Below are positions 9,388 to 57,700 of a stretch of DNA of 64,000 nt, piece by piece. The stretch spans positions 10,685,024 through 10,749,023 of the forward strand of contig NC_049991.1 in NCBI RefSeq assembly GCF_000003815.2. Reading direction: 5' to 3'. The first letter of the stretch is position 1. Each line of letters begins with the position of its first letter. Under the pieces are notes generated by a model. It had not been told where the DNA came from and searched no databases. It saw only the letters and a program-made list of their open reading frames with translations. This DNA is from Branchiostoma floridae (Eukaryota; Chordata; Leptocardii; Amphioxiformes; Branchiostomatidae). The position numbers and the translations under genes were made by a program.

Positions 9388-9840
9388 GAACACCATCACC
9401 GCAATGTCTGCAGCTCCGAACATCATCAGCGCAATGTCTGCAGCTCCGAACATCATCAGCGCAATGTCTGCAGCTCTGAACATCATCAGCGCAATGTCTG
9501 CAGCTCTGAACATCATCAGCGCAATGTCTGCAGCTCCGAACATCATCAGCGCAATGTCTGCAGCTCCGAACATCATCAGTGCAATGTCTGCAGCTCTGAA
9601 CATCATCGGCGCAATGTCTGCAGCTTCAACCATCATCAGTGCAATGTCTGCAGCTCTAAACATCATCAGTGTAATGTCTGCAGCTCTGAACATCATCAGC
9701 GCAATGTCTGCAGCTTTGAACATCATCAGTGCAATGTCTGCAGCTCCAACCATCATCAGCGCAATGTCTGCAGCTCCGAACATCATCAGCGCAATGTCTG
9801 CAGCTCCAACCATCATCAGCGCAATGTCTGCAGCTCCGAA
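9388..9840. repeat. 30-bp minisatellite, about 15 copies
   Basis: A 30-bp unit (AACATCATCAGCGCAATGTC followed by TGCAGCTCCG) repeats head to tail about 15 times with a few substitutions per copy. The first unit is the most diverged. Each copy contains a CTGCAG site. Because 30 is a multiple of three and the unit lacks stops, long repetitive ORFs appear on both strands. These are by-products of the repeat and I do not call them genes. Confidence 0.95.
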
Positions 9841-18200: not shown

Positions 18201-21114
18201 AGCTGGCTTCACTCAAACAGTAGAGGTAAGACTTGTTGACTTATACAATGATCATGGTGATTATCATACTAAGAGTGCACCAGACAAAACACAAGCAGTC
18301 AGTTTGTTGTCCCTAAACCTAAACAAGAGGCCTTTGGAAGATTGATAGCCTACCATGGACCCGAAGTGTGGAACAACCTACCGCCAGACACACATTTTAA
18401 TCTGACCTACTTCAGAGACTCTTGAAGTAAAAGAAACGACCAAAATGAACGAGCAAGGACTATGAACCCTGAGCTTTCGCACTATGTTTCTGTACCATGT
18501 GTATGTTGATAGATTTATAAGGACCAAATGTAATCTGTATCTCTGTTATATCTGACCCGTACACCCCGCATGACCTCGATGAAAAGAGGCCTGCAGGCCG
18601 ATTTGAGCTTCTCATGAATAAATAAAGGTACAAATACTACTCATGATACTAGCCTTTTTATGCTATTTAAGATGATTTTGTGTTGCTGTCATAAACTTAT
18701 CCTGTCCCCTTCTCCAGGCTTGGAGGCTGATGAAGAAGAGCCACATCAAACCTGACATCTTTATTTACAACCTGCTGCTGCGTGCTGCAAGGGACTGTGG
18801 GATAGGTCAGCATGAGGTCGCAGAACGGATCCTGCTAGGGGAGTCCGACATGAAGGGGATTCCCACCCCACGTCGGAAGAAAATACATGTAGGACCAAAA
18901 CTGATCAAAGGATCAAAGGGTGCCAAACAGCTTAGTGCAGGTCAAGGGTCGGAGGTCGTCTCCAAGGAGATGTTGACCGTTGAACCTGTAAGAGAAGCTG
19001 ACATGCAGCAGGACAGTCAAGCGGATGAGTTGTGGAAGGAGAGGTCTCCTCATGGCAGAAATACTAAAACACATGGCAGAAGTCCTGAGACTGAAATAAA
19101 AGCAGTAGCACCAACACAGAGTGTCCCCAGCCTGTTGAATCAGCAGACAGGGATGGAGAATGTTGTGTCCCTGGGACGGGTGCAGACCCCTGCTGACAGA
19201 CTCGGCCTGTTGGGAGGGGTGGGGGGTTTCCTCAGCAGTATGGAGGCTGACGGAGTCAAACCAAACATCAAAACTTTCTGTCAAATGCTGGAGATCATCA
19301 GGCCTAACACCAGGTAAGGAAAGAGGTCACTGGATATGTAATACTAAGTATGTTAAATCACAATTTCACATCCAAGTTAGCTTCTAGCTCCTTTAAAAGC
19401 ACTGAGTTTAACACAGTGCCGTTGCCTTCTGTTGCTTAATACAGAAAAAGCTATGTGCCCAGTGGGGGCTTATTGTTTCCGAGGATTGAAATTATTTGAT
19501 ACTGTAGGGAAGAGACCGACCTGATGGTTGCCATGGATGAACATGGTGTGAAACCAGACAGGGACTTCTACAATGCACTCATCAGGAAGAGAGCCATGAG
19601 GAGGGACATGGAGGCAGCTAAGGTATTTGCTTCTGTAATTGTAAGATTTCACATCCAATTGTTCCTTGGTGGTGTCAGGCCATGGATCCAACACTTTTGT
19701 TGAACAATAACCCTGGTGCGTTTTGAGTGCCGGATTCCTGCGTGCCGGATTCCTGTTCGCCAGATTCGTACATTTAACCTATAGTTCCTTTTTATGACCA
19801 ATATTGTTTGCCTCACCAGGCTGTCCTGCCCATGATGAGTGAGAGGAGACATTCCCCAAACCTCAGGACGTATGTGAACATGGCCATGGCATGTACCAAC
19901 AGTCAGGAGGGCTTCAAACTGCTCAGAGAAGTCAAGGTGTGTACACATTATGATATATGTACAGTATAAAGAAGAAATGATCGACATATTGGATGGTACT
20001 TTGAATTTAGTTTGTATTTGCTGTTTTATGATTTACCCTAAGTAATCTGTTGTGTGCCTGTGACCTATGTGAATTTAAAGTGTGCATGAAACCATATTTC
20101 TGTCTTTTATTGAAATTGACGATAATAGCAATCATCGATTGTAGTAATAAATATCCTTCTACAGAACACTTTTCTTTACTTAACAAGGTACTTATTCAGA
20201 AAGTGTTTTTTTTTAAATTATTATTTCCCATTTCCTCTGCAAGCCGAGTTGTAAAATTCAGTTACCACAATAAAAGTTTAAAAGGAAATTAGTTTACTTT
20301 ATGAGCCAAAAGGCAACTTGTGAATCAAGAAAGGTTAGGCTTATAAATCATGAAGTTTAACATAACAACAACTACATGTATCATGTTTGCAGCAAGCGGG
20401 ATTTGCTCCCAATGTGCAGTTGTTCACGGCTCTGATGAAGGCAGCCCTGTCCAGTAAGGACTACATCTATGCCAAGGACCTGATCATGGAGATGGAACGC
20501 CAGAACGTCGCACCAGACCAGTTACTGATCAAGAAGCTAGAGAAGGCTGCTGAGGACTATAAGGGACCTCAGGTACACAGTATTTTCTTAAGGTTAAAAG
20601 TACAAGACTTGGATAAGCAATTATAGATGTAGTGATTATTCAAGTTTTATTGTAATCCTGTTTTTATAAAGTAACATCATGAATGTATTGATAGTTGATA
20701 AGGCGTCAGAAGGATGACGGCTGAGGCACAATATATAGGTTTTGATCTCTTATTCAAGAGTCTTCATCAGAATCAATGCATATATTGATGAGTCTTAATT
20801 TCTATCTGATAAGAGAGAAAACACATGGCTAACAGACCCTTTCAAGTCTTGAAGGTTCCAACTCTAGTTTCTTGTCTATATATACGTTTCTATCAGGCTT
20901 TATTGACTCTTAGACATGGATTAACTCATCTTTAATCTTTTTTTTACAGAAGGGTCCATTCCGCTCCCCCCTGAATATCTACTTGTCCAAAGTCCATGCC
21001 TTCCGCAGTGTGTATAAGCATTGGTTGGAGCGTATGCCTGTAGCACAGGAGGAGCATCCATGGGACAAGTACAGGAAAACACCTAGTCAGGAGGGGGATG
21101 CAGCTGCTAAATAG
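15238..21114 (+). CDS. PTCD1: Pentatricopeptide repeat domain protein 1, mitochondrial
   Basis: Nine coding exons: 15238-16368, 16832-16972, 17465-17638, 18076-18225, 18718-19313, 19508-19622, 19820-19936, 20393-20572, 20950-21114. All junctions are GT-AG and in phase, giving 922 aa. The start [20 protein letters not shown] is an Arg-rich, acid-free presequence expected of a mitochondrial matrix protein. A long charged region fills the large first exon. From [13 protein letters not shown] onward come PPR units such as [34 protein letters not shown] and [13 protein letters not shown], with more in later exons. In mammals PTCD1 binds mitochondrial leucine tRNAs and supports 16S rRNA and mitoribosome function. 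The protein is longer than human PTCD1 (about 700 aa), mostly in the N-terminal charged region and the exon at 18718. A poly(A) signal AATAAA lies at 21337. Confidence 0.9.
16458..16669. mobile_element. MITE, TACTGTAAATGCA family, copy 1
   Basis: The ends are inverted repeats TACTGTAAATGCA and TGCATTTACAGTA, and the interior is made of CGCGGT and ACCGCG-rich blocks. The element is 212 bp and lies in PTCD1 intron 2 (between the first and second coding exons). TA at each end suggests TA target duplication, as for Tc1/mariner-type elements. A second copy in the opposite orientation lies in RRN3 (28034-28235). Confidence 0.8.
18262..18640 (+). mobile_element. CR1/L2-like LINE 3' remnant
   Basis: One frame reads [20 protein letters not shown], which matches the C-terminal signature of many CR1-like reverse transcriptases (Y-S-G-P/A-x-x-W-N-x-L-P). 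It is followed by a 3' tail ending in AATAAATAAAGG. It is truncated, lies in a PTCD1 intron and cannot be active. Family assignment rests on this motif only. Confidence 0.6.
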
Positions 21115-24752: not shown

Positions 24753-24914
24753 TGCCAGTCAGCCAATCAGAGCTTGTAACGCTCCTTTCCGGCAATATTA
24801 TACACAAGCAATAGTTGATTAGACATTGTTCGGAAGATTAGACATTGAAATCTTTGAATCTTGGAATGAACGGACGTATTCAAGTTATGCCCTACATTTG
24901 GCATCATCGTGTAT

Positions 24915-25015
24915 GTTTGGCGTAGCGTAGTGGATAGGGAGTTGACCCGGGAATCCATGATAACAGCTCCGACCCGGTTCGAGTCCGCGCCGGAATTTTT
25001 AGTTTTTTTTTTTTG
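24915..25015 (+). mobile_element. tRNA-like Pol III unit (SINE head or tRNA pseudogene)
   Basis: A perfect A-box consensus TAGCGTAGTGG at 24923 and a perfect B-box GGTTCGAGTCC at 24976 lie 53 bp apart, followed by runs of 5 and 12 T, which terminate Pol III. A complete cloverleaf cannot be folded: the acceptor arm is weak and the T-stem has a mismatch. I therefore call it tRNA-derived rather than a working tRNA gene. Confidence 0.5.
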
Positions 25016-25536
25016 CAATTTTTCTTGTACCTTTTTAAACATCCATTTGATATAAGAATATTTTATATATAAAACAACTTTTAAAGTTTCTGTTAACATC
25101 ATAAACAAAAAATAACACTGACCACAAAACGTCATAATTTTCGGCCGTGACGGTGTGGTTCCGGCGCTATCGGCAGCGACTCGGAAGAATATTTCTTTCA
25201 CATTAAAAATAATGGAGGTAAAACAACAACTATAACTTCGCTTCCTTATAAATTTTGAGGCCGCAAATTCTCCAATACGGCAGGAATTCGTCGGTAAACA
25301 GAGCTGAAAACGTGTTCCTAACCGATCCAACATGGCTGCCATGATCACATGCGGTGACAGTAAAACTAGCTCCCTATAATTATATGATAGCAGATTCCGA
25401 TGTTTAAAATTGTGCCGTAAACACGTGAAAAAGATTGTATTTTGGGTTGATTATGGACACAGGATGCCATTTGTATTTTTCAGAGTGTTGATTGTCAAAT
25501 ATAATCGTAAGATTTCCTCATTTTAGTGGTTTCTAG

Positions 25537-25668
25537 CACTGGGTGTGTCAATAGCCTAAACAGGCTATCGCCACACTGAGTGTGCCAATAGCCTAAACAG
25601 GCTATCGACACACTCAGTGTGTCAATAGCCTGTTTAGGCTATTGACACACTGGGTGTGTCAATAGCCT
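25537..25668. repeat. Palindromic repeat array, right
   Basis: Four or more alternating units of CACTGAGTGTGCCAATAGCC and CTAAACAGGCTATTGACACA type form nested perfect inverted repeats over about 130 bp. It shares its unit with 24695-24752. Either the pair are the ends of a foldback element or the unit is a local satellite. Confidence 0.75.
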
Positions 25669-26221
25669 CGCTCATTAATCAAAACAAAAGTTTCATGAAC
25701 TAAACTAACGTTATGTTATGTTATCCCCAAAAAGTTAAAGATCAGTGATGAAATTTTTCATTGTGACTGAAGAAGGAAGTTATATTACAAGTAGCTTAAT
25801 ATATGTATAAACCTCCCCCCATTACTTGAAGTAATTTCCAGAGGACCAAGAACCTGGACCTAATCGTCTCAGTGAAAACTTGTGAATTGGCAATACCCGA
25901 AACAATTGTCCATTTTGTTACAAAGGAATCTGTTTGACAGTCTCTGGTGTTTTTACAAGTCTAATGCCTATGTTAACTTTGACCATGTTTAACTGGAGGA
26001 ACTTGGTAAAAATGACTATCAACTCCTCTCTACTTCCTTCTTGTTATATTTGTTCTTGGGTCAGCAAGCCTAAAAACATGTGAACAGAGTCATGGAATGC
26101 GCCAATAACATTGTGTATCAGCTGCATGAACATTATTTTTTCCTCCAGGGAGTATCAATGAGGTTAACCTTGGGATTATTAAATTTTTCTCATGAATCTC
26201 TATTTGTACAGTTTGCAGGAG

Positions 26222-29200
26222 ATGTGTGACATCATGAGGGGGAAGGAAGCCATTGGTGTGAAGTCGGTCAGGTTTGGTGGGGAGATAGTGGAGGTGTTGA
26301 AGAATTTCAAAAGGGTAAGCTTCATATTATATTATTATAAATTTTCTGTTAGTACTGTGTTACCATAGTAATTCTTTTGTTTCTTGAACTTCTGAAGCTT
26401 TGCAGTACTGCTGCATGCTGTAATGTCCGACATACAGAAGTTGGTTACCATGGGCACCATATTTACTGCAGGCTCTGCATATCTCCGTTTACGTACTTTA
26501 GTAAGCTAATGAAAAGGGAGAACTAGCATTTTAAAAATACAGAGGATGGAACAAAGCGTAATCATACTACAAGAAGTTCAAGAAGGGAGAACGAGCCTAT
26601 GGTAGTAGTGGTTTGAAGCATGAGATACAATATACTCTGCCTGACTAGTACTCTCCAAGCAGAGGTTTCAACTGCAACTGTTTTTTTATGTGTCTTAGAT
26701 GTTTTTGTCAGGTTGTCTTTAAATATAATGTCAAGTTTTCTTCTTGTCCACCAGCAAAATTGGAGATATGAAGAAGATGGAAAAAATAGAGTGCCTGACA
26801 AAAACATCTAAAACATGTAAAAAAAACAGCCAGTGGAACTTCTGCTTGGAGAGTACTAGTCAGGCATTCTTGTCAGCGCTAGCTATTAGTAGTATTACAT
26901 TTTTTATCCTAATAGAAGAATACTGTTAAATTTCATTTTTCAGGGTCAGGAAACAGAATATCACCTCCTTGTGCACCAGCTGTCAGACCCAGATATTAAG
27001 GTACTGAGACAACACCGCTGCTATGTTTTGGACTTTTGATTGCTGTTTTAAACTGTTGATACGTATCTTTGCAGTTGCATTGTTTTCTTAATTCCTCTGT
27101 CTCTAATATGGCTGTCTTCCAGTCCCAGACACTGATATGCTGGCTGAAGGAACTGAAAGGCTGTGTCGCCTTCATGACTAAAGAGTTTGAAACTTTGGTG
27201 GGGGTTATACTGGTAAGAACAAGACTCTCTTTATTTTGTTTTATTGTTTTATATACTAGGAGACTTGTTCATCTGCCTTCTCTACTGAAGATGTTTGAAT
27301 ACTTAGTTAATAAGGAAAATCTTTTGTTTGAGAATCATTTTTCTATTTTCTCAGTGCACGGTAGAGTATGCGTTTAACTATTGACACTTATGCTATACCT
27401 GACACAATCAGTTTATTCAAAGCATTTTCTTGATACACAATCCAAATGTTAATCAGACAACTGAATAGCTCTGACACATCTGACAAAAGCTATCTAGTTG
27501 TATACTATAGTTGCTCATTTTATTACCTTGATATCTAGTCATCATTGACATATTTTCATGATTTGTTATGATTTTGCTGCAGAAAATGAGCTGGGCTAAC
27601 AGTGAAGATGAAGTAGTGAAGGAGTACCTGTCCTTCCTGGGGAACCTGGTGTCGGCACAGACCTTCTATCTACGAGCCTGTCTCAAGATGCTGGTCAAGA
27701 CACTCGTACCAAGTCAGTAACTCATCTCTTAGGAGTATTGAAAAAATGAACCACAATATATGATGGTAGGAGTCTAAAATAGAAAGTTGTAGCTTGATTG
27801 CTAGAAGAGAAAAGCAATTATGTAAGCTAAGACCTTGATACCTTTATCCAATTCTATTGCATAACTGTGTCCGGAGGTGAAGATAATCTGACTGTTATAT
27901 TGCTTGTGGTCACAGGAGTGTCAAGCGACATACCACTAGAAGAGGCTAAAATTGAAGGTAAGAAGCATTATAATAGTTATTTTCCCAGTATGTTTTATCT
28001 GTTATTTCCTACAAAACATATATTAGTAATGTATACTGTAAATGCATTTAAGTTCGCGGGGATTTAATTTCACAGTAGTGGAAAAAAGGACTTTTTGCGG
28101 TGGTTTTAATTTGCGGTAGTACGGTAGAGTGCAGTCTAATACCATAATAGAAAAATGTTCTCGGCTGTTTTAAGTTCATGGTGACGTGGTCACCGCGAAC
28201 ATTAATCCACCGCGAACATTTCTGCATTTACAGTAGTACCTAAGTTGATGGCCTACAATAGCAGGTTTATTCTGCTGCATATGTGTTTCTCTTTGCAGAG
28301 TATAACAGAATATTTGAGAATGCACACAGTGCATTGCAGAGAGTCCTACACATAGTTCCCCTGTAAGTATGAAAATATGTACACTTTGTAGAGTAAGTTT
28401 CTTTTAGCTCAACCTGAAGTTGAACTTACTATAAGTACTTATAGTGCTGAAATTTCATCAAGATTGTCTGAACCTTTATCTAGGTTGCCACAATTTTACA
28501 AAAAAATATGGTATTGATTTTTACTTCTGCAGAGCTCCCAAGTTTTTAGCACCAGTCCTGGTCGACTGTTTCCCCTATATGAAGAAAGATGCCTTTGTAC
28601 AGGTAAGGTTTTCCTCTTCTGGACTTGCTCATTTTAATTCTCATTGTTTCACTTAAACCTGACATACAAGTAATATACATTTGAGGATAAAATACCGTAT
28701 ATTCTCGATTTAAGTACGCACTTTTTAATTCAAAATTCAAAAAGTGTCCCAAGTCATTGCCAAAGTCGGGGTGCGTACTTTATTTGAGGTTGGCTTCCGG
28801 ACAAAATGGGAAAAGGAGCTGAAATTCGCGTAACACACAGCACACATGGCCCGTAAAGGCACCATTCTTGCCTGAAAACAACAACTGAAAACAACAGGAA
28901 CAACTGCAGGAACCAGCTCGATTTACAATGCCACATGGCACTGGATCCCTGCCGAAAATGACCATGTCATTTTTAAGCCATGGAGACATCGATTTTGGAT
29001 GATAATAGGCGTATAAAATGGATTGTTTACGTGCGCGCGTGACGCTGGATCTATTCCAAGATGGCGCTGGGGTTATTGGGGTCATTGGGACAGACTACTA
29101 TTGTATGGGTAGAACTTTTCTGAGGGGTGATTATTTCTTCCTTAAACCGTCGAATTTATTTTGTTATTGTCGTTTGAATAAAGGTGATAAACGTTGACAA

Positions 29201-32200
29201 TAAGTTGATTGTACGTTTATCAATTTGAAAACTATAAGGCATTTGTGTTTTTTGTCAACAAACAGCATGGTTACCCATGCTACTAATGGAACATCACATG
29301 CAGCAGTCGACGTCTCCAGAAGCATTTCGGCGGCAATTTCTTCACAAAAGACGGTCCGAAAGCACAAAACATCGTTTTCTTTGAAGTGGATCAAGATCAA
29401 GACCAGTTTCGGGAAAGATGGAAAACTGTTCAGGATGTTTTCATGTTCAAATGAACTGTAAATCAGGTGTTGCAGTGCCAAATTTGAGAACTTTGTTTGA
29501 CATGCCATAGCCGATTTACAAGTTTGCAGAGACGGATTTGCCGGCGGAGAAAACATAGCGTTTTCATAAATTCAGAAGTCCTTGATTTAGGCAAAATTAC
29601 CATCAGAAAAGAGATTAAACACTATTAATTTAGAATTTGTCTGGTGCAAAAGGTGTTCAAGATCGCTGGAGAAGGGGTGCGTACTTTATTCAGGTTTTTC
29701 CATTTTACGTTTCAGTGAGGCAAATTTGTCTGAGACTTGCCCTAAATCGGGGGTGCGTACTTTAATTGGGGTGCGTACTTAAATCGAGAATATACGGTAC
29801 ATCGTATGTGTCTGTGATGGTAATTGACATTCTGACAATTAAGATCATAGATTTTTTTCCTTTACCAACAGGCTTTCAACCAGTACTCTGATCCATCTCA
29901 TGTTGAAATGACCCAGAATTTTATTGTAGGTTTTACGTGAAAAGTACACTGTAATTCATTTTTGATGAGAATACGGCCAACATGAAATATTTCTTGCTCT
30001 TGTGCCCTGACAGGAGTGTTATGTGAGGAACCTGTTACAGATGACATCATACGTGCCCAGCCTCAGACTGCCCATCTTGGAGCTCATCATCGACAGGATG
30101 ATCAGAATAGATGTGAGTGTTCTGCGTATGAATATGTATCACCAAATAAAATGGCTGGAAGGAGGCACCATGCAAAATTAAAATTCATGAAGGAACACAT
30201 TTTTCAAAGGCTATTTCCTCAAAAGGGAGATAGACGGATGCATGTCTGAAACAGAATACACTGATATGTTGTAAAACCTGTCCTTTTGTATGCAGAAATG
30301 CTAAATGTTTCTGTGTGGATAAAAGGTGTGAAGTTATCAGTAGTAATCTAAAGGGTTGATCATGGCAAAAGATGATTTCAAAATTGTGCCCAGTCTTTGT
30401 TACCTTAGTCTGATAAGTAATGAAGGTCAAAGTTACATGTTAAACAAGAATACCACATCTTTCAATGTGGATCACTGGGTAACTTACATATTTATTGCTT
30501 ACCAATCCTAGGACTGCACAATAGGTTCATGAGATCAACACTGTGTAGATGTGCATGTAGAAAAACATGAACACCTCAAAAGTTTTCTTTGCTTTGTGGC
30601 CAGCAGAGAGCATTTCCCATTCCCCTGTAACAAAAGGCTTATAAACAACAGTGATGTTAATCCACCTTGTCCTTCCAGGTCCACGCTCCTAAACATGAAC
30701 TAGAGGAGGATGAAGAAGAGGATGCAGAAGATGAAACAATGGAACACCAGGATGATACCAGTATCCTGTTTGAAATGGTAAGTAATGGCACTCTCATATA
30801 CTACATTTCCCTACTTAAACGATTAGGATGATTATCTTTTTTAGTGAACACTTAAACACCTGCAGAAATGCACTAGAATTGAAAACAAAATGGAACTTAT
30901 TGTCCTTCTCTAAAATGAACCCATAGGATGGCATGGAGTGTAGCAGTGGTAAGACATCGGAACAGGTGAAATCAGCACCCGATCTGGCCGTTACCATGGA
31001 GACTGGGGAGTCCAAACCTATGACACATGAGATGGGAGACAGGCTGGATGTGATGATGACTGTCATGCTGCAGTATATCAAAGACTCATGTCTGAACAAG
31101 GACACAGGTGGGCAGGTCAATGTAGTTACTTGGTGTGTCTGTGGTTATTTGAGTGACAGCTAGTGAGCAGGAATCACAGCAAAAAGTCAGACTTTATGTA
31201 GCTGGACTGGTAGGAAGTACAGGAAGTGCCAGTCAGAAACGGTAGAACTAGTCATTAATCAGCCACAACAGTCTGGGGCATGGAAGAGGGAATTGATTTA
31301 TGGCAATGCGTTGATTTTGCTGTTTGTCCATGTTTTCGCAATAATAATTCTCTCTATATATTTTCCATATGCTGTATGAATATGATAAGCCTAAGTTATT
31401 GCCTTGAGATTGTATGCACTAAGTCATGTTCCCCTATCTTGTTCCAGGTGAACTGCAGACCCAGCCTACCATAGAGATGTTTCGCCACCTGCTGACAGCG
31501 TTTGAGAAGTTGTTACTGCCGACCCACGCCTCCTGTCATGTACAGTTTCTGGTCTTCTACATCACCTCCTTAAGACAGGCAAGTGGTGGAAAACTTCAGT
31601 GGTTTTCTACATACATCTTAGTACATGCAAACACAAGGCATCACATTTTATCAACAAGGAAAATCTTCAAAAGTGTAAAGCACAAAGTGGAACTGTATTT
31701 TGCAACAATGTAGCTATAATTTAGACATACATTTAGTATGAGTATATACTTCTGCAGTGGTTTTATTTTTGCACTTTCTCCACTGTAAATCCGTGACATC
31801 ACTAATATATCTCCCTTGTATGACTTATGTACTACAGAATTGTTTCAACTGCAAACACCTTAAAATCTCCTTCTCCTTCTCAAAATAGAGCCACAGTGAA
31901 AGTAAAGAGATTTACTGTACTCCATCTGTTCCAGGACCTGGCCGATGCGTTCCTGAACTTCTGCTGGCGGAAGGTTCAGAGTCCCAACACACCGGTCATC
32001 CTCCGCCAGGCCGCAGCAGCATACATGGCCAGCTTCCTCGCCAGGGCCAACTTTGTACCTCTCAGGTGACCTGGGCTTTCATGTAGTCACAATTATAATG
32101 TCATGCAAGATGTACATGTAAACCGTACAAAATGTGTATGTTAGCAGTCCTACAGAATTTGGACATGAAAACCCTGTAGTTTTATACACACACCCTTGTG

Positions 32201-34931
32201 ATCATTTATAATTTTGGACCTAGACTTGTAGCCTGCATGTGATCGTGTCTTATTTGGTTCTTGACTGCGCTCCCACAGTCAGAATTATGTGTACGGCACG
32301 GAGACTAAACCAGCCACAAGCTCACGGCAGGTGGAACACACTGTCCACTTGTCAGAGTGGAAGGCTTACACCTTTCCAAGTCGTTAATGTTTGACTTGTG
32401 TCCGCTGTCCAGTGTGGTACATGTACCTATGCCATTTGAGGAGAAGCCAAAGATATCTACATTGTTCCAGGATTTCTATTCTGATGTGATGATGTTTTTT
32501 GTCCTCTCACAGCACAGTGATTGCTTGTCTAGATCTCCTACTGCCATGGATACACAGGTAAGGGAACATGTCATATCATCTGAAAATCAAGTTAAAACTC
32601 CCTAAAATCAGACAAGCACAATCAGTGTTTTCAGTACTTTTAATGAAATATCTTTATGAAAATATTTCATTGCCAGGATTCATCGTGTCTATCCTGTTTT
32701 ATTTGCAGATACATAGATGACCAAGATGGCAGCACGAGGTCTTACCCTGATGTCAATCTACATGGAACCTTCTACTCTGTGTGTCAGGTAAGATTCGCTC
32801 ATGTGCTAAGAGAGTGTCCCTTCCATTTTCTGAATATCATAGGTTCATTCAAAATTGTCTAGTCATTGTGTAATCAATGTTGTATTATTTGCCCACAGGC
32901 TGTGTTCTACATGTTTGTGTTCAGACACAAGCAATTTGTGGAGTCTAAAAAGGGTGAGTCAATTCTTGCCTTTTATAGAAACATAAATAGTTCTTCTTCA
33001 TTGAATAAACTAGGTTTTGCTTAATGTATGGTGACAGGTTGAACAGAGATTAAAGTTAAGCATTGCTGTAACAGAACGTTTTTGTCCATTGTTGTAAAAG
33101 AAATTGTGATGCATGTAGTACAAACATCCATAAAATTTCTGCATTGCTACTGTTTGTCTACTTAGGCTTGAACTACATTCGGGGACTGAACTTTGACCGA
33201 GTGATAAACTGCAGACTGAACCCCCTGAAAGTGTGTTTACCAACGATAGTCAACATGTTTGCCTCCATTACAAGGTAAAGCCAACTTGTTTGATTCAGAA
33301 ATATTGTTACAGCTGCCATGTTTTTACATAGACATAGCCATGTGGAGTTACATGTGTTTAAATCTGATATCAACTCAATGACCCACAGTCCGCTCAGTCC
33401 TGCCTGTTGTTGTTGTTGATGCATGTTGTTGTTGTTGTTACAGGATGTACCAGATAGTCATGTGTTACACCATCATGGAGAGGAACAACCGCTCAGTCCT
33501 GCCTGTTGTTGTTGTTGATGCATGTTGTTGTTATTGTTACAGGATGTACCAGATAGTCATGTGTTACACCATCATGGAGAGGAACAACCGCTCAGTCCTG
33601 CCTGTTGTTGTTGTTGATGCATGTTGTTGTTGTTGTTGTTGTTGTTGTTACAGGATGTACCAGATAGTCATGTGTTACACCATCATGGAGAGGAACAACC
33701 GCTCAGTCCTGCCTGTTGTTGTTGTTGATGTATGTTGTTGTTGTTGTTACAGGATGTACCAGATAGTCATGTGTTACACCATCATGGAGAGGAATAACCG
33801 TTCAGTCCTGCCTGTTGTTGCCAGCAGCCAGGGAGGACCCACTGATGTCACCAACCTCAACCCTCTAGATGCATTCTTCCCCTTTGACCCCTACATGTTG
33901 AGTAGGTAAGTACAGCAGAAACCACCACCACATCCACGTCTTCTGTACTTAAGTTCTGACTGCCTAACTCCACTGTTATACTATCAAGTTTTAGTCAGAA
34001 TTTTGAGAGCTGTATCCTTTGTGTTGCTTTTGGAATTTGTTGGAAGAAAAAACTGCTATATCAGGCTGCAGTTAAATCACATTTGCTTAACTACAGATTG
34101 GAAAAAAAGTATTTGAACAAGTCAAAGTTGTTACTAGTATGATAGATTAGCTAGCCTGTGATCGTGTCTTATTTGGTTCTTGACTGCCCTCCCACAGTCA
34201 GAATTATGTGTACGGCACGGAGACTAAACCAGCCACAAGCTCACAACAGGTGGAACACACTGTCCACTTGTCAGAGTGGAAGGCTTACACCTTTCCAACC
34301 TTCCCCACTGGACAAGCCGTTCCTGTTGAGTTGTGTTCAGTGTCTAATGTCCTGTTGTTGTGTGCAGGTCCAAGAGGTTCATCCAGCCCCTGTACCAGGA
34401 GTGGGAGGGCAGCGACCCTGATCAAGATGAGGCCGCCAATTCTGAGGTGAGACATAACTTCTTGATTTTAAAAGTCCATCAAACAAAGTGTATTTTTGTA
34501 CATCATTATAAATTGGGTGCAGTGAACCTACTTCTTACTCCAAGACCAAAGGGGAGTATTGGAATTTTTCCATTGTTCTGACCAGATAAAGAATGTTTCA
34601 CTACCCCCGCTGTATGACATGTGATGCAGGAAATGTTTTCATGTAATGGCCACAAATTACACAATACAGTAGGAACAACAATTTGTCAGAGAATCTGTAG
34701 ACGTGTCAGTGTGGCTGTGATAGGCACCTGTATAGTCTTAAGGTGATGAGGGGAGAGAATAATGAAATGGAACGTTTGTTGATGTGTTTGTAGGAGGATG
34801 AAGATGACTTCCTCCAGGGTGCCATGTCACCAGGGACCCCCCACATGGGCACCACACCCGGATCTATCCCAGAACTCCCTGGCTTCAGGAAAAGGAGACG
34901 CACAGACAGCAGCTGTCTATCACCACCCTGA
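26222..34931 (+). CDS. RRN3: RNA polymerase I-specific transcription initiation factor RRN3 (TIF-IA)
   Basis: Exons: 26219-26314 (ATG 26222), 26944-27000, 27123-27212, 27583-27712, 27916-27957, 28299-28362, 28533-28602, 30014-30112, 30679-30777, 30927-31107, 31448-31578, 31935-32065, 32513-32557, 32709-32787, 32899-32953, 33166-33274, 33753-33905 (upstream acceptors possible), 34368-34446, 34794-34931. The sum is 614 aa (human 651). Family blocks are VRFGGEIVEVLKNFKR at the N-terminus, EEYLSFLGNLVSAQTF-like (here KEYLSFLGNLVSAQTF), KLLLPTHASCHVQFLVFY, IVMCYTIMERNNRSVLPV and DAFFPFDPYMLSRSKRFI, then an acidic tail EDEDDFLQG. RRN3 links Pol I to the promoter factor SL1 and passes growth signals to rRNA synthesis. 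The intron after 31578 uses a GC donor (CAG|GCAAGT). Poly(A) signal AATAAA at 35658. An earlier exon with an alternative start cannot be excluded. Confidence 0.93.
28034..28235. mobile_element. MITE, TACTGTAAATGCA family, copy 2
   Basis: Same terminal inverted repeats and CGCGGT-rich body as 16458-16669, but in the opposite orientation. It is 202 bp and lies in an RRN3 intron. Confidence 0.8.
28693..29799. mobile_element. 1.1-kb non-autonomous DNA transposon with about 29-bp TIRs
   Basis: The ends TACCGTATATTCTCGATTTA (continuing AGTACGCAC) and their exact complement at 29771-29799 form terminal inverted repeats of about 29 bp. TA at both outer edges suggests TA target duplication, as in Tc1/mariner or pogo types. 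Sub-terminal GGGGTGCGTACTTTA motifs recur inside both ends. No transposase frame survives. It occupies most of the RRN3 intron between 28602 and 30014. Confidence 0.75.
32239..32379 (+). repeat. RRN3 intronic duplicate, copy 1 (141 bp)
   Basis: About 98% identical to 34158-34298 by eye (three differences). It contains CTCCCACAG| before an open stretch reading QNYVYGTETKPATSSRQ. It lies in the intron after the exon ending at 32065. It looks like an exon with an acceptor but is not needed for the RRN3 frame. Confidence 0.85.
33391..33818 (+). repeat. Tandem duplication of an RRN3 exon start with its splice acceptor (4 copies)
   Basis: A unit comprising a TTG-rich tract, TTACAG acceptor and the coding start G|MYQIVMCYTIMERNNRSVLP occurs four times, with ATG at 33445, 33544, 33655 and 33754, after a partial leading copy. 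Spacings are 99, 111 and 99 bp, all multiples of three, and no stop intervenes from 33445 to 33909. Only the fourth copy runs on into the rest of the exon (VVASSQGGPTDVTNLNPLDA). Confidence 0.95.
34158..34298 (+). repeat. RRN3 intronic duplicate, copy 2 (141 bp)
   Basis: Partner of 32239-32379. It sits in the intron between exons 33753-33905 and 34368-34446. As with copy 1, the acceptor-like CAG follows an exon that ends in the same phase (codon split after AG). Confidence 0.85.
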
Positions 34932-41368: not shown

Positions 41369-44300
41369 TTATGAGTCTTGTGCCAGCTCCCACTGTCCTG
41401 CAGTGTTCCTCCTGTACACCTTGCCCCTCCCCCTGGGGAACACAGTCTCCCCGGGGTGGGGGTGTTCTAACAAGAACTTCAGGGCTGCTCTAGTGTTCTC
41501 CACAAAGTCTGGAGGTTCTACCAGTGGTGATGTGGACAGGTACTGGAGGGAAACAAAAGGAAACAAATTAGACACAACTTGTCAGCAAGTATTCAAAATC
41601 TGATGGCAGACTTAGCAAGATATATCCACATTGTGCATTTGTGAGTACTTGATATACACATTTATTTGAATCAACAAAACATTTGGACTAACTAGTGTAG
41701 GTCTAATGTGAAGAGGCCACTGTTTTTGACCATCATCTATGTAGATCCTGAATGAAACTTTCTGTTTGGATGAACTCACCTTGAGAATGATGCGGTCAGG
41801 CTGCTCCAGCCATCTGTCTGCATCATGGAACCGGTCGTAGTGGAACGGTCCAATGTTCAACTCTCGCTTTGTGGAGTCATAGATGTTCAGCATCTGTAAT
41901 GAGAATGCACTCTAGCACAAATATGGAGAGAATTGTGCCTCTTATGGGGCTATTCACAGTTTGGTGTCCGTCACATCTGATTCTAAAAGTGCGACCTTTG
42001 GTCTACCGCTCCATGTCAAAATCTGGCATATTTTTCATTTTAGTTAAAAGGGACAAACATAAAATACAACCCCCTGTTGTTTTCCTTGAGCAACCTAGAA
42101 CATCACAACATAATGATACCTTTCTGTCAGATGTCTATATGCTTGTGTGGTAAGACTTTGATGACCAAACTTAAGGCAGGCACAGATAAATATTGCACCA
42201 CTCAACAGCCTTCTTAGTATCTGGGCAATTTGCAGAAATAGTGTTCCAACATGTAACGTTACATGTTCTAAAGATTCTGCTTAGACAATGCATGAATGAG
42301 TATGTATGGCCGGTACACCACCTCATGCTTGCCTGTGTAGTTCCTGGCATGTCTCAGAGCCTGGTCTGGTCCTTTGTCTGTGAACTTGGCTGGGAACATC
42401 TCACCACTTCTGACATCCACAGCTGAAAACAAACACATTTTTGGTGTGACAAACAGTATCATCCACTAATGAAAGTGATTGGCCTTATCTGATCTATATA
42501 CAGCAGGCATGAATCCATAGTAATATGTTTCTGTGTATGACCATGATGTAAGGAATACTTGCCAGAGTGGCGTTGTAATCAATGACTGTAGACCAATTTG
42601 ACTTTGTACACATAAGGCACATGGCCCCTGTTTGTACAGTGTATGTTGGATTTCATTGTTAAGTTTGTATTACTGAAGTCATATATTCTATTCAGAGGGT
42701 GTATGTTGGGAACTTACCAACACCATAAATGACTGGCCAGTGGACTTGGTCTTTTACCACATCATTTAGCTCTATATTGAAAAAGAAAGAAATTGCCATC
42801 TGCACATTCATTTTTTGTGATTATGATGTTGACAGTCAATAAATTACTATCAATGGAGAAGCTTTTACCATCATTTCCATATTTGGAATTTTAAGTAAGA
42901 TCAAAAATATACCACTGGAGAAATAGCACATAATTCAAGCACAGGTGATTACACAAAACTGGAACATGTATCACATAACAACTTCAACCACTAGAATGTC
43001 TATATCACTAATACATAACTTTTGTGTGAAATTCAAAACCTACCTGAGACACAGGCTGTCTGGAGGTAAATGTTGTCTTTTACTCTGTTGAACTCCTCTG
43101 TGGATAAGAAGAGGACAAAGACATTACAATTTAACACTGTAAACTGTCCCTTGTACATTGTGCATTGTACAGTTAACAGACTCAAAACAAGTCATGATGG
43201 TAGGATTGCTAGTAGAGCAATCCTATGGAATTTTGCTGAAGGAAGGCAAGGGTCGGCAAGGCTCACCTTTTGCTTACCCACTGTCCTACCCTTGTCACAT
43301 TGAATTTCAAAGAATGTTAAACCGTACTACTACATGTATATGTACATTCACTGCATTGTTTGTTGTAATAGCCAAGATCCTGGTCTTAGATCCTACATTG
43401 TTTGTTGTAATTGGCAAGACCCAGGTCTTAGGCCGTCAATGCCTTTGCACAACCTATAAGCCTCTACTAGCAGGGTAGAATAAAGACATAAAAGTTAATG
43501 AGTGTTTCAGAGCAGGTGATGTAATGACTAAGTTGCACTTACCTATCAGCTCCATTGTAAGCTGTTCTGACATACATCTGTCATCACAGAACCCTCCCAC
43601 CAGATGCAGCTCCAGCCTGAGAGTGGAAAAGGCCATTACAAGATTGCAGGGACTCTACCACAAGTAACAATCATGACACACACATAACCAAGCTGTTAAA
43701 TGCACAAACTGGTGGTGGGAGAGACGGTACCGGAGAGAATGGGTGCCTCATCATGTTTAAATTCTTTTCATCACTGATGACCACTGAAATACACCATATA
43801 CATGTAGATGCACATAGTACAAAGAGAAGCTCTCCCGACTGACTCATAAATATTTCTAACTGCTACACTGTTTCAATACTGTAGTCTGTCCCTCCATTTA
43901 AGACAAATATCACACCCACCTTCCCTCTGTGCAGTTTTGAGTGAGCTGTCCCAGATTTCCCATCATGTCCCTGATCCCCTCTCTGGTGCCAGCTCCATCA
44001 AAGTGTGCCACACATGTCACACCACAACCTGCAGGGTACATACGTCTGATAACATGATCCGTAATTCAGTACAATACGTTATAATGTAAGCCCCATTGCT
44101 ACATGTACATGCACAAAATGTGAGTAATAAACCCTGACGGGTGAATTTTCCAATGAACATATCAAAATGTAAAAGTGCATGTAAGATATCACTGACACTG
44201 TTTTTCAGATAGCTATGATACAATATAGTACTATAAGGACACTAACATATTTTTGACAAGGATTCTGTAAATCAAAGACAAAAAGAAGAAACAAAGGCTT

Positions 44301-45674
44301 TAATAATATAATCTTTCTGAGGCTGTAACATTTACATCTGAATTTATATACAGAGATCTGCTGACCTGTGTGCCTGAGAACAGCTATGTGACAAGTCGTG
44401 GCATCTTCTGAACCTAAGAACTGTACAACATCTGAAATGAGAGGAAGACAATTGACAATAGCTGACAGTCCAACATTCATCTTACACATCTGTATCTCTT
44501 CTTGGAAAATGACAAGAAAATCAAACATCAACATAAGATGAACCTCCTGGAAAAGTTGTCTGTCTTTTTTGACAGCCTGACATTGACCTTGCCCGCCCGA
44601 CATTGACCCTGATAGCCCGACATCAACCTTGCAGGCCCGACATCGACCCTGCATGCTCGAAATCGTCCCTGACCTTCTGACATCGACACTGACTGCCTGA
44701 CATCAACCCTGCAGGCCCAACATTGACCCTGACCGCCCGACATCAACCCTGTATGCCAACATCAATCCCGACCGCCCGACATTGACCCTGCAGGCCCAAC
44801 ATCGACCCTGACCGCCCGACATTGACCCTGACAGCCCGACATTGACCCTGACTGCCCGACATCGACCCTGACCACCCGACATTGCCCGACTTTCCCCCTA
44901 AGTACAGAAGATGAACTGCCTAAAGTGCGCAAATGCTGAAAAATTGGAAAAAGCAGCGAAGGATGAGCATACGTGAAGGAATCAAAGACAGAGGGAAAGC
45001 ACGAGACCAGAAGCCGACAAACTGAAGCAGATTAAGAGACAACAACATTAAAGATGTGTCAGACAATCACACTGCAATATGCAGCTGCAATAAACATTGT
45101 AAAGGTTTTGCTTGGGCAATTTTTGAAGCTAACATTTGTGCAGACACATACCGTCAGATGGCCCTGTAGCTGCATATTCCCTCTGGTTGACATACAGGAC
45201 ACCGTCTGTACCCAGGGTCCTCACCGCCTGGCTGCACAGGTTTGCTGCTGACTCCTGAAACAGTGGGTACCAGCTTCCAGTTTGCATTGAGCCATCAAAG
45301 GGCAGACTGATAATATTGCATGATTTACTTTTTCAACAGACCCAATTATGTCTATTCTACTACATTGGGCCGTATGGTAGATTTTATGGATAAAATCAGC
45401 ACGCTCATGAATTTTTACCTGATTGAATTTTTTTTTTTTTTATAATACAATAGGGCTAGCCTAATGTTATAGTATTGTGTGTGAGTAGCGTTGAGAAATG
45501 GAACAACTCTCAGGATCAGGAAGTGAAACTGGAAGAAACATGATGAACATTCTCTCCAGCTTTGCGCAAGATAAAACAAGACATTTTGCACACCTTGAAG
45601 TGTGGGAACCTGGTCAGCAAGCTTTTCACGCTGTCAACTTGTCCTACAGGAGTGTCATCCACAACAAGCGGCAT
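41369..45674 (-). CDS. NTAN1: Protein N-terminal asparagine amidohydrolase
   Basis: Ten minus-strand exons: 45594-45674, 45152-45254, 44366-44431, 43920-44028, 43543-43616, 43044-43097, 42718-42771, 42322-42422, 41780-41893, 41369-41542. They are in phase and give 309 aa (human 310). The start MPLVVDDTP matches the conserved MPL opening. Residues 68-79 read GSEDATTCHIAV, with the nucleophile at Cys75, the same number as in human NTAN1. LHLVGGFCDDRCMSEQLT, VHWPVIYGV, the MLNIYDSTKRELNIGPF block and STSPLVEPPDFVENTRAAL follow in the expected order. The enzyme deamidates N-terminal Asn exposed after Met removal to Asp, feeding the Arg/N-degron pathway. An in-frame upstream ATG exists at 45746, but the MPL start is preferred by homology and because Pro2 is conserved. 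Confidence 0.93.
44573..44892. repeat. 20-bp minisatellite in an NTAN1 intron
   Basis: About 15 imperfect units of the form GCCCGACATTGACCCTGACC run head to tail in the intron between NTAN1 exons 2 and 3. The strand is strongly pyrimidine- and CCC-rich. Unit sequence varies at several positions, so it is older than the 30-bp array at 9.4 kb. Confidence 0.9.
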
Positions 45675-51770: not shown

Positions 51771-54700
51771 CTACCCATCATCCTCCTGGGCTTCTGTATC
51801 TCCATTTTCTCCTTCCTCCTTGTCATCTCCCTCCTCCTCAATTTCCTCCTCCTCGGTTTCTACCTCTCCCTCCTTGGTCTCCTCCTCCCCATCCTTCTCC
51901 TCAGCAGTCTCCTCTCCCTTCTGATCATCTGTCTTGTCCTCTGGTGACTCCTCATCCTTGGATGGTGAGGGCAGCACCAGTTTCATGGGGGGAGATGTTT
52001 TAGTTGGAGTGGATACCGGGGTGCTCAGGGGACTGGTGCTGGGACTGCCTCCCTGAATCTGCATCTTGTACTTGTAAGTTGTCTCAGTACTTTCCACAGA
52101 ACCTGGACAATTATAAACACTTCTTTTTATCTTAATACAATTCTATCAATCTTATAAATTATCTCTTAATGTTAACTCTTCTCTTTCCATGCAATGACTT
52201 GGACATTGTTCAATGTGACTCAACTAAACTTTAAGGTATTGACAATTCAATGCAAGAAATAGCAAACTCATCATATGCACAATAACAAAATAAAGTGGAG
52301 ACCCTTACATGGAACAAGTAATTGATTCACTAATTCAAACCGTACAAAATCAAAATCGACCCATGACAATGTGTTATAAATTTAGTAGTGAAAATTCTGA
52401 AGTGCTCAGACTTCCAGAGCATCAATACATCAATAGTTGCAACCAAGTTATCCATAGAAGAGTTTTCCTGTTATATACGGACCTGAGGAGAGGTTAAAGG
52501 TGGTGCCCTTGACATTGCCTCCAGGAGTCTTGGCCTGGAGAGGAGACAGCCAGTTCCACATAGACCCCACTATGGGGATCTGTCTGATCACACCCTGGTG
52601 TAGGACAGGGAAGAACAGGCTGTTAGCAAAACCCACAAATTTGGACAAGATTTAGACTCTTAACATTCCTTTATAGCAATCAAGATTACCCCTATGACCA
52701 TCAAAAATTGTAATTGTCAGTCATCATATTCTCAACATAGATTCAAACAAATTTTCATCATGGCATGCAGGTCTGATACTATACCAGAGACCTCATCCTC
52801 ACCATTGTTGACTTCACACACGAAGTGCATGTTATACGTTAGTGTTTGTCATACCTCTTCCATGATCTTCTCCTCATTTGCCTTCTGCAGTTCCTGTTCT
52901 GCCTGCTCGATGCCCTTCCTCACCATGTCTGCCATTCTCTCCAAGAACTACAACACATATAGGGCATACTTATAGGTATACCTGGCATAACTTATAAAAT
53001 CCTATCCTCTTGTATGATAAAATCCTGAGGTATGGCATCTTTCGCATACAATCAAACTGTGGCATATACAGTAAGATACTTGCAGCTATGATGATGAAGT
53101 TTGTGCCAGCTGGAGTTCTTTGCTTTTCACATTCTATCCTTATTCTTATTTAGAGCAAGATACTAGTAATCATTTCAACTCTAACTTTCTAGACAACAAA
53201 ATTTAATACTCCTTTGAACCATATATAACACTACACATGTATCTAGCAGAGTTATTACGGTAAATGTGACTCCAGAATTTACTTTAGAATCTTATTGAAT
53301 CTAATTTTTCAATTGTTCAAAGTAAAAACTTGATTTGGTCTATCTCACCCTGGAGGAGTCCTCTAGTTCCTTTCCTGTGGCATAAATCTCCTGCACTAGT
53401 TCCTCCACACTCACATCATCAGACACCAGTCCTACACACACACACGCCCTCCCGTTAGGGGCAGTGCTCTTCAGGAACCTCATGTCCTCTTTGACTGACA
53501 GCTTGTTGACTATGTCAGCATTGAGTTTGTCCATTTCAGTTTTGGTTTCCTCTGTCAGGTTCTCCAGTGAGTGATGACCCCAGTACTCAGGAATGTATCT
53601 GTGAAGTAACAAACGCATAACATGCTCTTAAAGTACATAACATAATCTTAATGCTTTTAAAGTAAAACAATTTTTTTCCTAAAAACCTAACACACTTATT
53701 TTTTCATTGTCCAGCTTCCTGGGATAGTTTTGTTACCATATCTGTGACAAGTGTTTAATAGTAATGAATTCTAGGGTTAATATTCATGAGCTAGACACTA
53801 ACACGCATGCGTAGCGTCAGGAGACGGTTAGAGGAACCTGAAGAGAGATACCTCCACAAGGCACAGAAGCTCTTGTGGAAGATTGAATAAACCGTAAGCA
53901 GTACCCCATCGGGCCTGAGTCATCATTCCAGAAGACCACAGCTGAGAGATCTGGATACTGAGATCAGTGACAGAAAGTTACATGGTGTCAGAAGTGGGAT
54001 TCGAACCCACGCCCCCATTCGGGATGCTGAGTGTAGTCTTCGGATTGGAGCGCTTCCATCAGTACACCTATGGGAGAGACGTTCTAGTCCAGACAGACCA
54101 CAAGCCACTCGAGATGATCGTACTGAAGCCACTCCATGCAGCACCAAAAAGGCTGCAACGCCTGATGATGCGGATGCAACAGTACCACGTGAAGATCACG
54201 TATAAACCAGGAAAAGAGATGTACCTAGCTGACACGCTAAGTCGCGCATACCTACCATATGACGGAAGAAGAAGCAAGACCGAGATGGATGCTGAGCAAG
54301 TGAACGCAATCAGTGAGTTCATCTCAACGCCAACGATAGAAGATATTCGCGAGCATACCAGCGGAGATGCAGATATGCAGAAGCTGATGCAGTACATAAG
54401 AGAAGGATTTCCAGAGAAGGGAAGAATCCCGGCAAGATTGATGCCTTACTTTCACATAAGGGATGAGCTAACCCTCCATGACGGGATCGTGCTGAAAGGC
54501 CAACGTGCAGCAGTGCCACTGACGCTGAGAAAGAAGATGTTGCAGAGGATACACGCATCACACATGGGCATTGAAGCATGCCTGAGAAATGCAAGAGAGT
54601 GTGTGTTTTGGCCCGGCATGAACGCCGAAGTGAGAGATTACGTCAGCAAATGTGACGTGTGCCAAACTGTGGGCAGAAAGCAGCAGAAGGAAACACTACA

Positions 54701-57700
54701 ACCACACCCGGTGCCGAAGAGACCGTGGGAGCGAGTGGGAGTAGATCTCTTCCAGTTCAAAGACAGAGACTACTTGATCACAGTGGACTATTACTCAAAT
54801 TTCTTTGAGATAGACACATGCGAAAACACACGAGCCACTACAATCATAAAGAAGCTGAAGACGCAGTTCTCCAGACATGGCATACCGGATGTAGTGGTCA
54901 GCGACAATGGCCCACAATTTGCAGCTGCTGAGTTCGAGAAGTTCACCCATGAATGGAACTTTACACATCAGACGTCTTCACCAGGCTATCCACAAAGCAA
55001 TGGGAAAGTGGAGAATTCAGTGAAGACAGCCAAGCAGCTGATGGAGAAAGCCTGGATCGGGAACACAGACCCGTACCTCGCACTGTTGGATTTCAGAAAC
55101 ACACCAACACAAGGAATTGGTAGCAGTCCAGTACAGCGACTGTTTGCCAGAAGAACCAAGACAACAATGCCAATGAACACAGCATTGTTGGAACCAGACG
55201 TGCCCAAGGAAATCCCACAGAAGATCCAGAAAGAGAAAGAAAAACAACGCCGCTACTACAATAGGCAGGCGCGAGATCTGCCAAGGTTGAGCATCGGAGA
55301 CACTGTGCGATGTCAGCCACATGGAACAAACACCAATCGCTGGAAGAAAGGCACGGTGGTAGCAGAAGTAGGGAACCGATCATTTGAAGTAGAAACCGAA
55401 GATGGAGGAGTGTACCGCAGAAACAGACGACATCTGCGGAAGACACCGGAAACCCCACCAGCAACAGTGGGAACTGACGACACTGACCAAGGAGATGCTC
55501 CAGAACCAACGGTCAACGACGAACCAACAACAACGACGACAACACCACCAGCAGAGACAGCAGTGAAAGACGACACAGCTGGACAACAGATGACAACACG
55601 GTCCGGACGAGCAGTTCGACCTCCAGTGCATCTGAAGGACTACGTTCGCGAGTAATGCATGAACAGTAATGCATGAACAATTAACTCAAGAATTGACCAA
55701 CTAACCGACTAACTAACCATGAGAGAGACTCCCGATCAGCAGAACACAAGAACTTTAGATCGTGAAAGATCTGAGAAAGGAACTGAACTATAGACACATT
55801 GATTGTATAAGAACTGAAACCTGAGTGTCAAATATGCGAAAGAGATCTAAAGAAAAGGGGATGTGACAAGTGTTTAATAGTAATGAATTCTAGGGTTAAT
55901 ATTCATGAGCTAGACACTAACACGCATGCGTAGCGTCAGGAGACGGTTAGAGGAACCTGAAGAGAGATACCTCCACAAGGCACAGAAGCTCTTGTGGAAG
56001 ATTGAATAAACCGTAAGCAGTACCCCATCGGGCCTGAGTCATCATTCCAGAAGACCACAGCTGAGAGATCTGGATACTGAGATCAGTGACAGAAAGTTAC
56101 AATATCAATGCAATGTTTCCCCAAATTTTGCCCATATGCCCCCAAACCTTGTCTCCTAGATAGCCTTTTTACTTACTGCAGTACCCCAACTCCTGGCCAG
56201 GTGGCATCATCAATGGACAGAAGGTTGGGATGGCCCTCTACAGCAGCTTGGAATACTTCTCTTTGGTCAACGGTGCAATCCAGAACGGCCTGCAACCACA
56301 AAGAACAACGTTCATGCAGGAGATCATGGCACATAATAAAATCAAAATGCTTTTTCAAAGACAATGCAGGAATTTCAGTTGTTTCAAAACAATTCAATAT
56401 TTACATTAACAAAGGTTAGACATCCAGGTAATAAGATACGCCAAATAACAATTACTCAAGCAACTGGATATGACGGTCAGACATTTCAAATAACATCCAT
56501 TATCTTTGTCATCGCCATTTGGCATAATGTAATTCTAATCTATATAAAACAAAGCAGTGTTGCCCACAGTGTGCTCGTCCAGACGCTCCACCAGCCTGTC
56601 CACATGTTCCCTCTGTGTTCCCCTGGTGGCAGCTGTGAGTAGAGGGTTAAACCTCAGACACACGCCCTCAGGCTCCACCTCAACTATGTCCAACTGCAGC
56701 TCAGGGACATCCTTAGATAACTGCTCTCCCAGCTGGAGGGATGAAACATTGTATGTACAGTAAGTCAGGAAATATTGCCTTAGAAGGTTCACAAAAAAAT
56801 GAAAGCATTGTTCAAACTTAGAGATAGCATTGACTAGCTTTGTAAACAGCAGATAGCAATCGTCTGTACTTAGGTATGACTCATTCTACCGCAATTCATT
56901 CTTTAGCAATATCAGGCGGCACCTCTGTACATAGCTATACATATTTCTAGATGTTAAAATGCTGTCTTGTACATATTCTATGTTTTTCATGTTTGTTTGT
57001 TTTTCATATGGGCCAGGGAGTGCCTGAAATAAAGAAATAAAGAAATCGTCTTAAGATGCATTTTGTTCTTGGTCTCATTCTGCTTGAGTTGATAACTTAA
57101 ATACTTGTAGTGCAATTTGACGTCTACACAAGTGCTTCCACCTTACCTAAGATTGCCACAAAGCTGATTTTAAGAAGTGAACAGACAATATTCCCACTGA
57201 AAACTCACCCATCTGTTGAGTGTGTTATACAGCAGCCTGTGTTTCTCCTTGTCCAACTCCTTAGAGTCATCATCCAGTTTGGCTGCTGCATATGGTGCCA
57301 CTTCTTCCCCTGGGCAGAGATACATTTCATACTGAATTCTGATTCTGACTAAAATTGAAAACACTGCATGCAATGTCTTCCTTTTGGATAGAATTATCTT
57401 TGTCTACTTTTGACTATAGAAGAGGAAAATGTGCACATGCAACACTTACCTGGTTTGTCTCTACTCTCTGCATATCTGAATATGACTACAGGTGATGGGA
57501 CATCAAACTGGGTCTAAGAAAAAAAAAAGGCTGACTTAAAGAAAAATACATGAGAACATCACATTGACCATAGATTAGAAATGTTCTACTATGGTGTGGA
57601 AAACTGTTGTATGTCAACAAGGTAAGAGGAGACATCTACATAATTTTTATGAGGAAATACAGCCTAACATTCATCTAGGACTGTAGAAGGAGCATCGCAA

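Follow-up and report, generated by a model that had tools for sequence, protein, structure and literature searches.

In amphioxus genes, tandemly duplicated intron-exon boundaries are a recurrent feature and have been given the name of mirages (PMC3087553, PMC3902484). In the globin gene BflGb6, such a cluster comprises six and three units in two haplotypes, with concerted evolution inside the cluster and the boundary units excluded from it, and the draft assembly was reported to be aberrant at this gene (PMC3087553). The repeated AG/GT signals of a mirage could act as cryptic sites; globin RT-PCR and data on Adh3 suggest that regular splicing is undisturbed (PMC3087553). TnC and Adh are cited in passages of PMC3902484 as mirages without aberrant mRNA, and the same source describes PGBD5, for which the repeat numbers differ between two assemblies, the repeats were confirmed by further sequence data, and splicing was inferred rather than assayed. 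A search confined to one paper collection found no printed example of a mirage in Branchiostoma RRN3, a literature search for tandem duplications or VNTRs with a splice acceptor and an exon-intron boundary returned no papers, and such repeats are described in none of 12 of the 16 places considered in PMC3096672.

Here we describe a tandem array at the 3' splice site of intron 16 of an RRN3 gene, located in a window of 64,000 nucleotides of genomic DNA. A preliminary description had presented it as a rare natural case in which acceptor choice sets the number of copies of a core block in the protein. Tandem boundary duplications recur in amphioxus (PMC3087553, PMC3902484), and if the window is from amphioxus, the array adds to the known mirages and is not a unique natural case. 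Judging from its splice signals and frame, a role of acceptor choice in setting the copy number in the RRN3 protein is possible. We consider it likely that the array is a mirage, namely a minisatellite across the boundary of intron 16 and exon 17, and that the extra copies are mostly intronic.

The RRN3 gene and its surroundings

RRN3 is a Pol I initiation factor encoded by an essential gene. We assembled the gene model by eye from RRN3 homology, with the uninterrupted 615-codon frame as its check (Table 1). The 5' limit of the model is the first exon found; a start codon or 5' exon was not found. Homology to RRN3 (PF05327) runs along the protein, as seen in the alignment of residues 15–596 of 615 to human RRN3 (7oba_O 48–628, E=1e-173) and in the Pfam scan, where three of the four RRN3 frames matched PF05327; frame 27060–27377 had no Pfam match, yet the model puts exon 3 there. 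The conserved protein resumes at 33753, in the last copy of the array, without a gap after the end of exon 16 at 33274. The assignment of gene and exon to RRN3, with the last acceptor giving the standard protein, is thereby borne out. Introns in the model are 111–1411 nt long, and the largest internal exon other than exon 17 has 181 nt.

Several other features of the gene were observed. Intron 11 has a GC donor at 31578/31579 (AGACAG/gcaagt), the one GC donor in the gene, and is a GC-AG intron. Intron 7 seemingly contains, by eye, an element with inverted ends at 28690–29800 (CCGTATATTCTCGATTTAAGTACGCAC... and its reverse complement). Introns 12 (32229–32379) and 17 (34148–34298) share a 151-bp element that is 96% identical and flanks the array; in both copies CTCCCACAG, or a sequence resembling it, precedes an open stretch (SQNYVYGTETKPATSS...).

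Pieces of NTAN1 (41615–41911; PF14736, E=3.8e-10) and PDXDC1 (53343–53627; PF22937, E=1.2e-19), both on the minus strand, follow downstream of RRN3; they were recognised in Pfam scans for neighbouring genes in which 6 of 20 frames had any match. RRN3, NTAN1 and PDXDC1 are neighbours in human 16p13.11 as well, and the arrangement fits an old conserved linkage compatible with a chordate, presumably an amphioxus. The G+C content is 41.4%. Upstream of RRN3, pieces of a pentatricopeptide-repeat gene were found at 18676–20623 (+), one frame above and one below the Pfam cut-off for PPR_3, and a 227-codon open frame at 24770–25450 (-) has a sub-threshold match to RIC3 (21.9 bits, cut-off 28.9). Identical 240-bp direct repeats at 53743–53982 and 55862–56101, 2119 bp apart, flank an open reading frame with RNase H and integrase domains; the whole resembles a short LTR retrotransposon of very recent origin.

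Table 1. Positions of the RRN3 gene, the exons and intron at the array, the decoy acceptor and the repeat units (window coordinates).
Feature	Position	Strand	Length	Remarks
RRN3 gene	26219..34931	+		19 exons; uninterrupted frame of 615 codons between the first exon found and the stop
RRN3 exon 16	33166..33274	+		end ATTACAAG/gtaaag
RRN3 intron 16, last acceptor used	33275..33752	+	478 nt	
Upstream decoy acceptor CCCACAG	33382..33388	+		score -3.5; A of CTGAT 21 nt before the cut
Unit 1	33390..33488	+	99 bp	exon-derived tail, TTG tract with TTGAT, TTACAG 33438-33443, exon block copy 1 from 33444
Unit 2	33489..33587	+	99 bp	acceptor 33537-33542; exon block copy 2 from 33543; one tract G>A
Unit 3	33588..33698	+	111 bp	four extra TTG; acceptor 33648-33653; exon block copy 3 from 33654
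Unit 4	33699..33797	+	99 bp	acceptor 33747-33752; runs into the authentic exon; tract C>T in GATGCATG
Last partial unit	33798..33820	+	23 bp	within authentic exon 17
RRN3 exon 17, ordinary reading	33753..33905	+	153 nt	donor AGTAG/gtaagt; matches 7oba_O 519-569

Layout of the tandem array

TRF reported positions 33390–33820 as an array with a period of 99, 4.2 copies, 91% matches and 6% indels, and self-BLAST aligned the array to itself at a shift of one unit (99) with E=2e-142, which excludes chance. In the register that we used, CCGCTC...AA(C/T)AA, it consists of four complete head-to-tail units of 99, 99, 111 and 99 bp and a 23-bp end piece. Together with the four TTACAG sites, these results confirm the fourfold tandem exon start, each copy with its own acceptor, as originally noticed. 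The array thus stands, but its extent had to be redrawn as the four units and the end piece, beginning at 33390 instead of 33391 with the exon-derived tail of a unit (CCGCTCAGTCCTGCC...).

Every period is built alike: a tract rich in TTG, including a TTGAT that resembles a branch point, is followed by the acceptor TTACAG and then by the first 68 nt of exon 17. Of these 68 nt, one unit contributes its last 45 and the following unit its first 23. Exon blocks 1–3 are identical over these 68 nt, and copy 4 differs at two sites, both synonymous C>T. The array accordingly has the sequence features of a mirage: it is a minisatellite-like tandem, its unit spans an intron-exon boundary, and the authentic copy is excluded from homogenisation.

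The unique part of intron 16 (33275–33389) matched nothing else in the window significantly (best E 0.63). When the plus strand of the window was searched by self-BLAST for similar duplications (E of at most 1e-4, under 3 kb between copies), only the splice-junction array and the single 151-bp intronic pair were found within RRN3 (26–35 kb). Other local repeats in the window include those at 9362–9841, 25537–25668, 44570–44887 and 59772–60402. The first contains a 30-bp minisatellite of 15.3 copies (9382–9841), open in several frames, and the third a 20-bp minisatellite of 15.7 copies (44570–44882); the last consists of degenerate local direct repeats with 68–82% identity at shifts of about 170–560 bp. 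Relatives of exon 17 were sought in viral and genome contig collections, and tblastn confirmed none of the 73 and 523 pattern matches, respectively.

Splice signals in the array

The G that starts the exon lies at 33444, 33543, 33654 and 33753, each time after TTACAG, with spacings of 99, 111 and 99. We scored the acceptors with a matrix of the 18 other RRN3 acceptors, a small number of sites with leave-one-out scores of -5.3 to 12.7. Acceptors 1–4 reached 17.2, 14.4, 17.2 and 17.2, all above the 18 others of the gene. TTGAT occurs in every unit, and its A precedes the splice point by 24 nt, except in the 111-bp unit, where the distance is 36 nt. With similar scores and a TTGAT for each, nothing in the acceptor itself singles out the last copy. 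The set of four TTACAG acceptors described before was correct, but the upstream AG in CCCACAG with its CTGAT had been missed. The leading exon-derived fragment of the array is possibly a relic of an earlier exon start that followed CCCACAG.

The donor matrix was built from 18 RRN3 donors (leave-one-out -0.5 to 12.5). The only GT or GC sites of the array that score above -1 are GAT/GTACCA at each block start (0.3) and GAT/GTATGT at 33729 (2.2), and splicing from 33729 to acceptor 4 would remove an intron of 23 nt. These scores agree with the earlier observation that copies 1–3 have no obvious donor. On this evidence copies 1–3 seem to be without a convincing donor, which is fair wording because 2 of the 18 real RRN3 donors score below 2.2 and 1 of 18 below 0.3; the score alone does not exclude donors. 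Copies 1–3 as separate exons (exonisation) were considered and rejected for want of a convincing donor.

Reading frame across the array

The frame across the array is open from 33382 to 33906, with a stop at 33907–33909, confirming the absence of stops that had been pointed out. Starting from acceptors 1, 2, 3 and 4, exon 17 would have 462, 363, 252 and 153 nt, in every case in frame and open, with 103, 70, 33 and 0 added residues; translation returned the same insertions as the preliminary description. Intron 16 would measure 169, 268 or 379 nt with acceptor 1, 2 or 3. The spacings are indeed all multiples of three as had been claimed, but they are not three independent coincidences. The 12-bp excess of the 111-bp unit consists of four extra TTG triplets; a triplet expansion cannot break the frame, so that one 1-in-3 event suffices.

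How often chance would produce such a frame was modelled on the other 18 RRN3 exons by duplicating 40–90 nt of the exon (less if the exon is shorter) together with 20–60 nt of the preceding intron. Among these hypothetical junction duplications, 9292 of 27880 were in frame and 4005 of 27880 (14%) were also free of stops, the in-frame open share ranging from 0 to 33% per exon. For exon 17 with its TTG tract, 697 of 2091 were in frame, and all of those (697/697) were open. An open frame across such an array is therefore nothing unusual, with odds of at most one in three to one in seven; at a chance rate of 14% the in-frame property is weak evidence for a functional choice among acceptors.

Consequences for the protein if upstream acceptors were used

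The MYQIVMCYTIMERNNRSVLP block aligns without gaps, at a low score, to about residues 534–553 of yeast Rrn3 (5g5l_O), a region that lies just before the flexible loop 552–580, which contacts AC40/AC19 (PMC4947163). The C-terminal third of Rrn3 has been placed on AC19 and AC40 (PMC5362265). In the translations, the linkers between block copies are rich in Val, Asp and Cys, with 4, 9 and 5 Cys. Use of the upstream acceptors would, from the translated sequence, put extra blocks and such linkers ahead of the Pol I contact loop, and we infer that longer RRN3 isoforms are more likely minor or harmful than adaptive. The repetitive frame gave a weak hit to PF18807 (18.7 bits against a cut-off of 29), which was dismissed as noise.

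Discussion

The array might have originated from an ancestral duplication extending from the TTG run of the intron to TGTTGTTG in the exon, as the repeat common to the unit joints suggests. The left edge of the array is exon-derived sequence, and therefore a one-step duplication must have been followed by truncation. Later unequal exchange or slippage could have homogenised the inner units, and the pattern of differences points to an edge copy, the authentic exon start, that was left out of the homogenisation. By analogy with the published cases, splicing would in most RRN3 mRNA join the exon 16 donor at 33274 and the fourth acceptor at 33752/33753, giving the ordinary protein with copies 1–3 removed. 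Any leak to acceptors 1–3 would keep the frame and insert the additional residues before the segment preceding the Pol I interaction loop. The RRN3 protein is, on our analysis, most likely unchanged by the array, and its function probably ordinary.

The interpretation as a mirage is favoured by the authentic copy being the last one, contiguous with conserved RRN3 on both sides, by the differences of copy 4, which resemble those reported for boundary copies of BflGb6 (PMC3087553), by exon length, because acceptors 1–3 would give exons above the largest other internal exon, and by the chordate-like neighbours NTAN1 and PDXDC1. The scores of acceptors 1–3, close to that of acceptor 4, argue against it, as does proximity to the donor, which favours acceptor 1 with an intron of a length within the range of the gene. 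The exon-derived left edge also counts against it, given the truncation that a simple one-step origin then requires. The proximity rule and exon definition are general principles of splice-site choice. Here they would act as opposed forces, donor distance favouring acceptor 1 and exon definition favouring acceptor 4 with its 153-nt exon. We prefer the last acceptor because the published amphioxus cases tip the judgement. The likelihoods that we attach to the different readings, including those below, are not mutually exclusive.

Some or all of acceptors 1–3 might be used functionally, yielding isoforms with two to four MYQIVMCYTIMERNNRSVLP blocks joined by Val/Asp/Cys linkers, in a number that varies between individuals. 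Four intact and strong acceptors, a branch-like motif for each of them, a frame open throughout, copies 1–3 without a convincing donor and the shortest intron with acceptor 1 would all suit such a choice, and yet we regard it as unlikely. The mirages in the literature reportedly leave splicing undisturbed (PMC3087553, PMC3902484), open in-frame duplications are common by chance (4005/27880), and Cys-bearing linkers beside the segment that precedes the Pol I contact loop would probably not be neutral in a conserved protein. A test for coding selection is underpowered, as the blocks show two differences, each of them a synonymous change in the authentic copy. It is rather improbable that all four acceptors are used somewhat, with a polymorphic minisatellite setting one to four copies of block and Cys linker before the AC40/AC19 loop and the length of RRN3 varying by individual or tissue.

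An assembly artefact or a collapse of two haplotypes, with a true array shorter or longer than four units, concerns the count and overlaps with the other readings. The identity of exon blocks 1–3 would agree with it, as would the aberrant draft of BflGb6 and the disagreement of the PGBD5 assemblies on repeat number (PMC3087553, PMC3902484). However, the units carry private differences (a tract substitution, the 12-bp expansion, a C>T and the two changes in copy 4) and are therefore not one read copied, and the PGBD5 repeats were reported to be confirmed by further sequence data (PMC3902484); we find this explanation quite doubtful. The copy number of the RRN3 array is probably polymorphic, and an allelic expansion, the fallback of the preliminary description, would fit the published haplotype variation. 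Finally, a partly broken allele, in which the intron's own CTGAT, with its A 21 nt before the splice point, drives splicing to CCCACAG (AG ending at 33388) and the product stops after 10 codons with partial decay of the mRNA, is very improbable, since this acceptor scores -3.5 against 14–17 for the copies and 1 of 18 real RRN3 acceptors is lower (-5.3).

If the mirage in RRN3 is confirmed, an essential gene joins the amphioxus genes with duplicated splice boundaries. The array would also provide a clean natural test of how the spliceosome chooses among near-identical 3' splice sites, with donor distance set against exon definition, because all acceptors are in frame and about equally strong, and the alternatives are not hidden by nonsense-mediated decay.

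Among known systems, intron creation by internal gene duplication (the Rogers model, cited in PMC3087553) resembles the RRN3 array in that segments bearing splice sites are duplicated within a gene. The array differs in having no new intron: copies 1–3 are without a convincing donor, and a duplicate supplying both a functional donor and acceptor, as intron gain demands, is not apparent at the sequence level (best donors 0.3 and 2.2 vs -0.5 to 12.5). The Adh3 mirages (Canestro et al. 2002, as cited in PMC3087553 and PMC3902484) likewise consist of a minisatellite across an exon-intron boundary, but with units of 10–72 bp and reported somatic instability. Lancelet PGBD5 has 60- and 108-bp tandem repeats over splice sites, of lengths divisible by three, and uncertain extra coding copies with a predicted 57-residue insertion; its repeats are imperfect, whereas the inner exon blocks of RRN3 are identical (PMC3902484). 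BflGb6 (PMC3087553) shares with RRN3 tandem units that join an intron's 3' end to the 5' part of the next exon, the homogenised inner units beside divergent boundary copies, and the AG/GT signals kept in many units. The globin cluster has units of 150–160 bp with 81–100% identity and is documented by two haplotypes and RT-PCR, while the RRN3 array has units of 99 or 111 bp in one haplotype, and it differs from BflGb6 in that every choice of acceptor is in frame.
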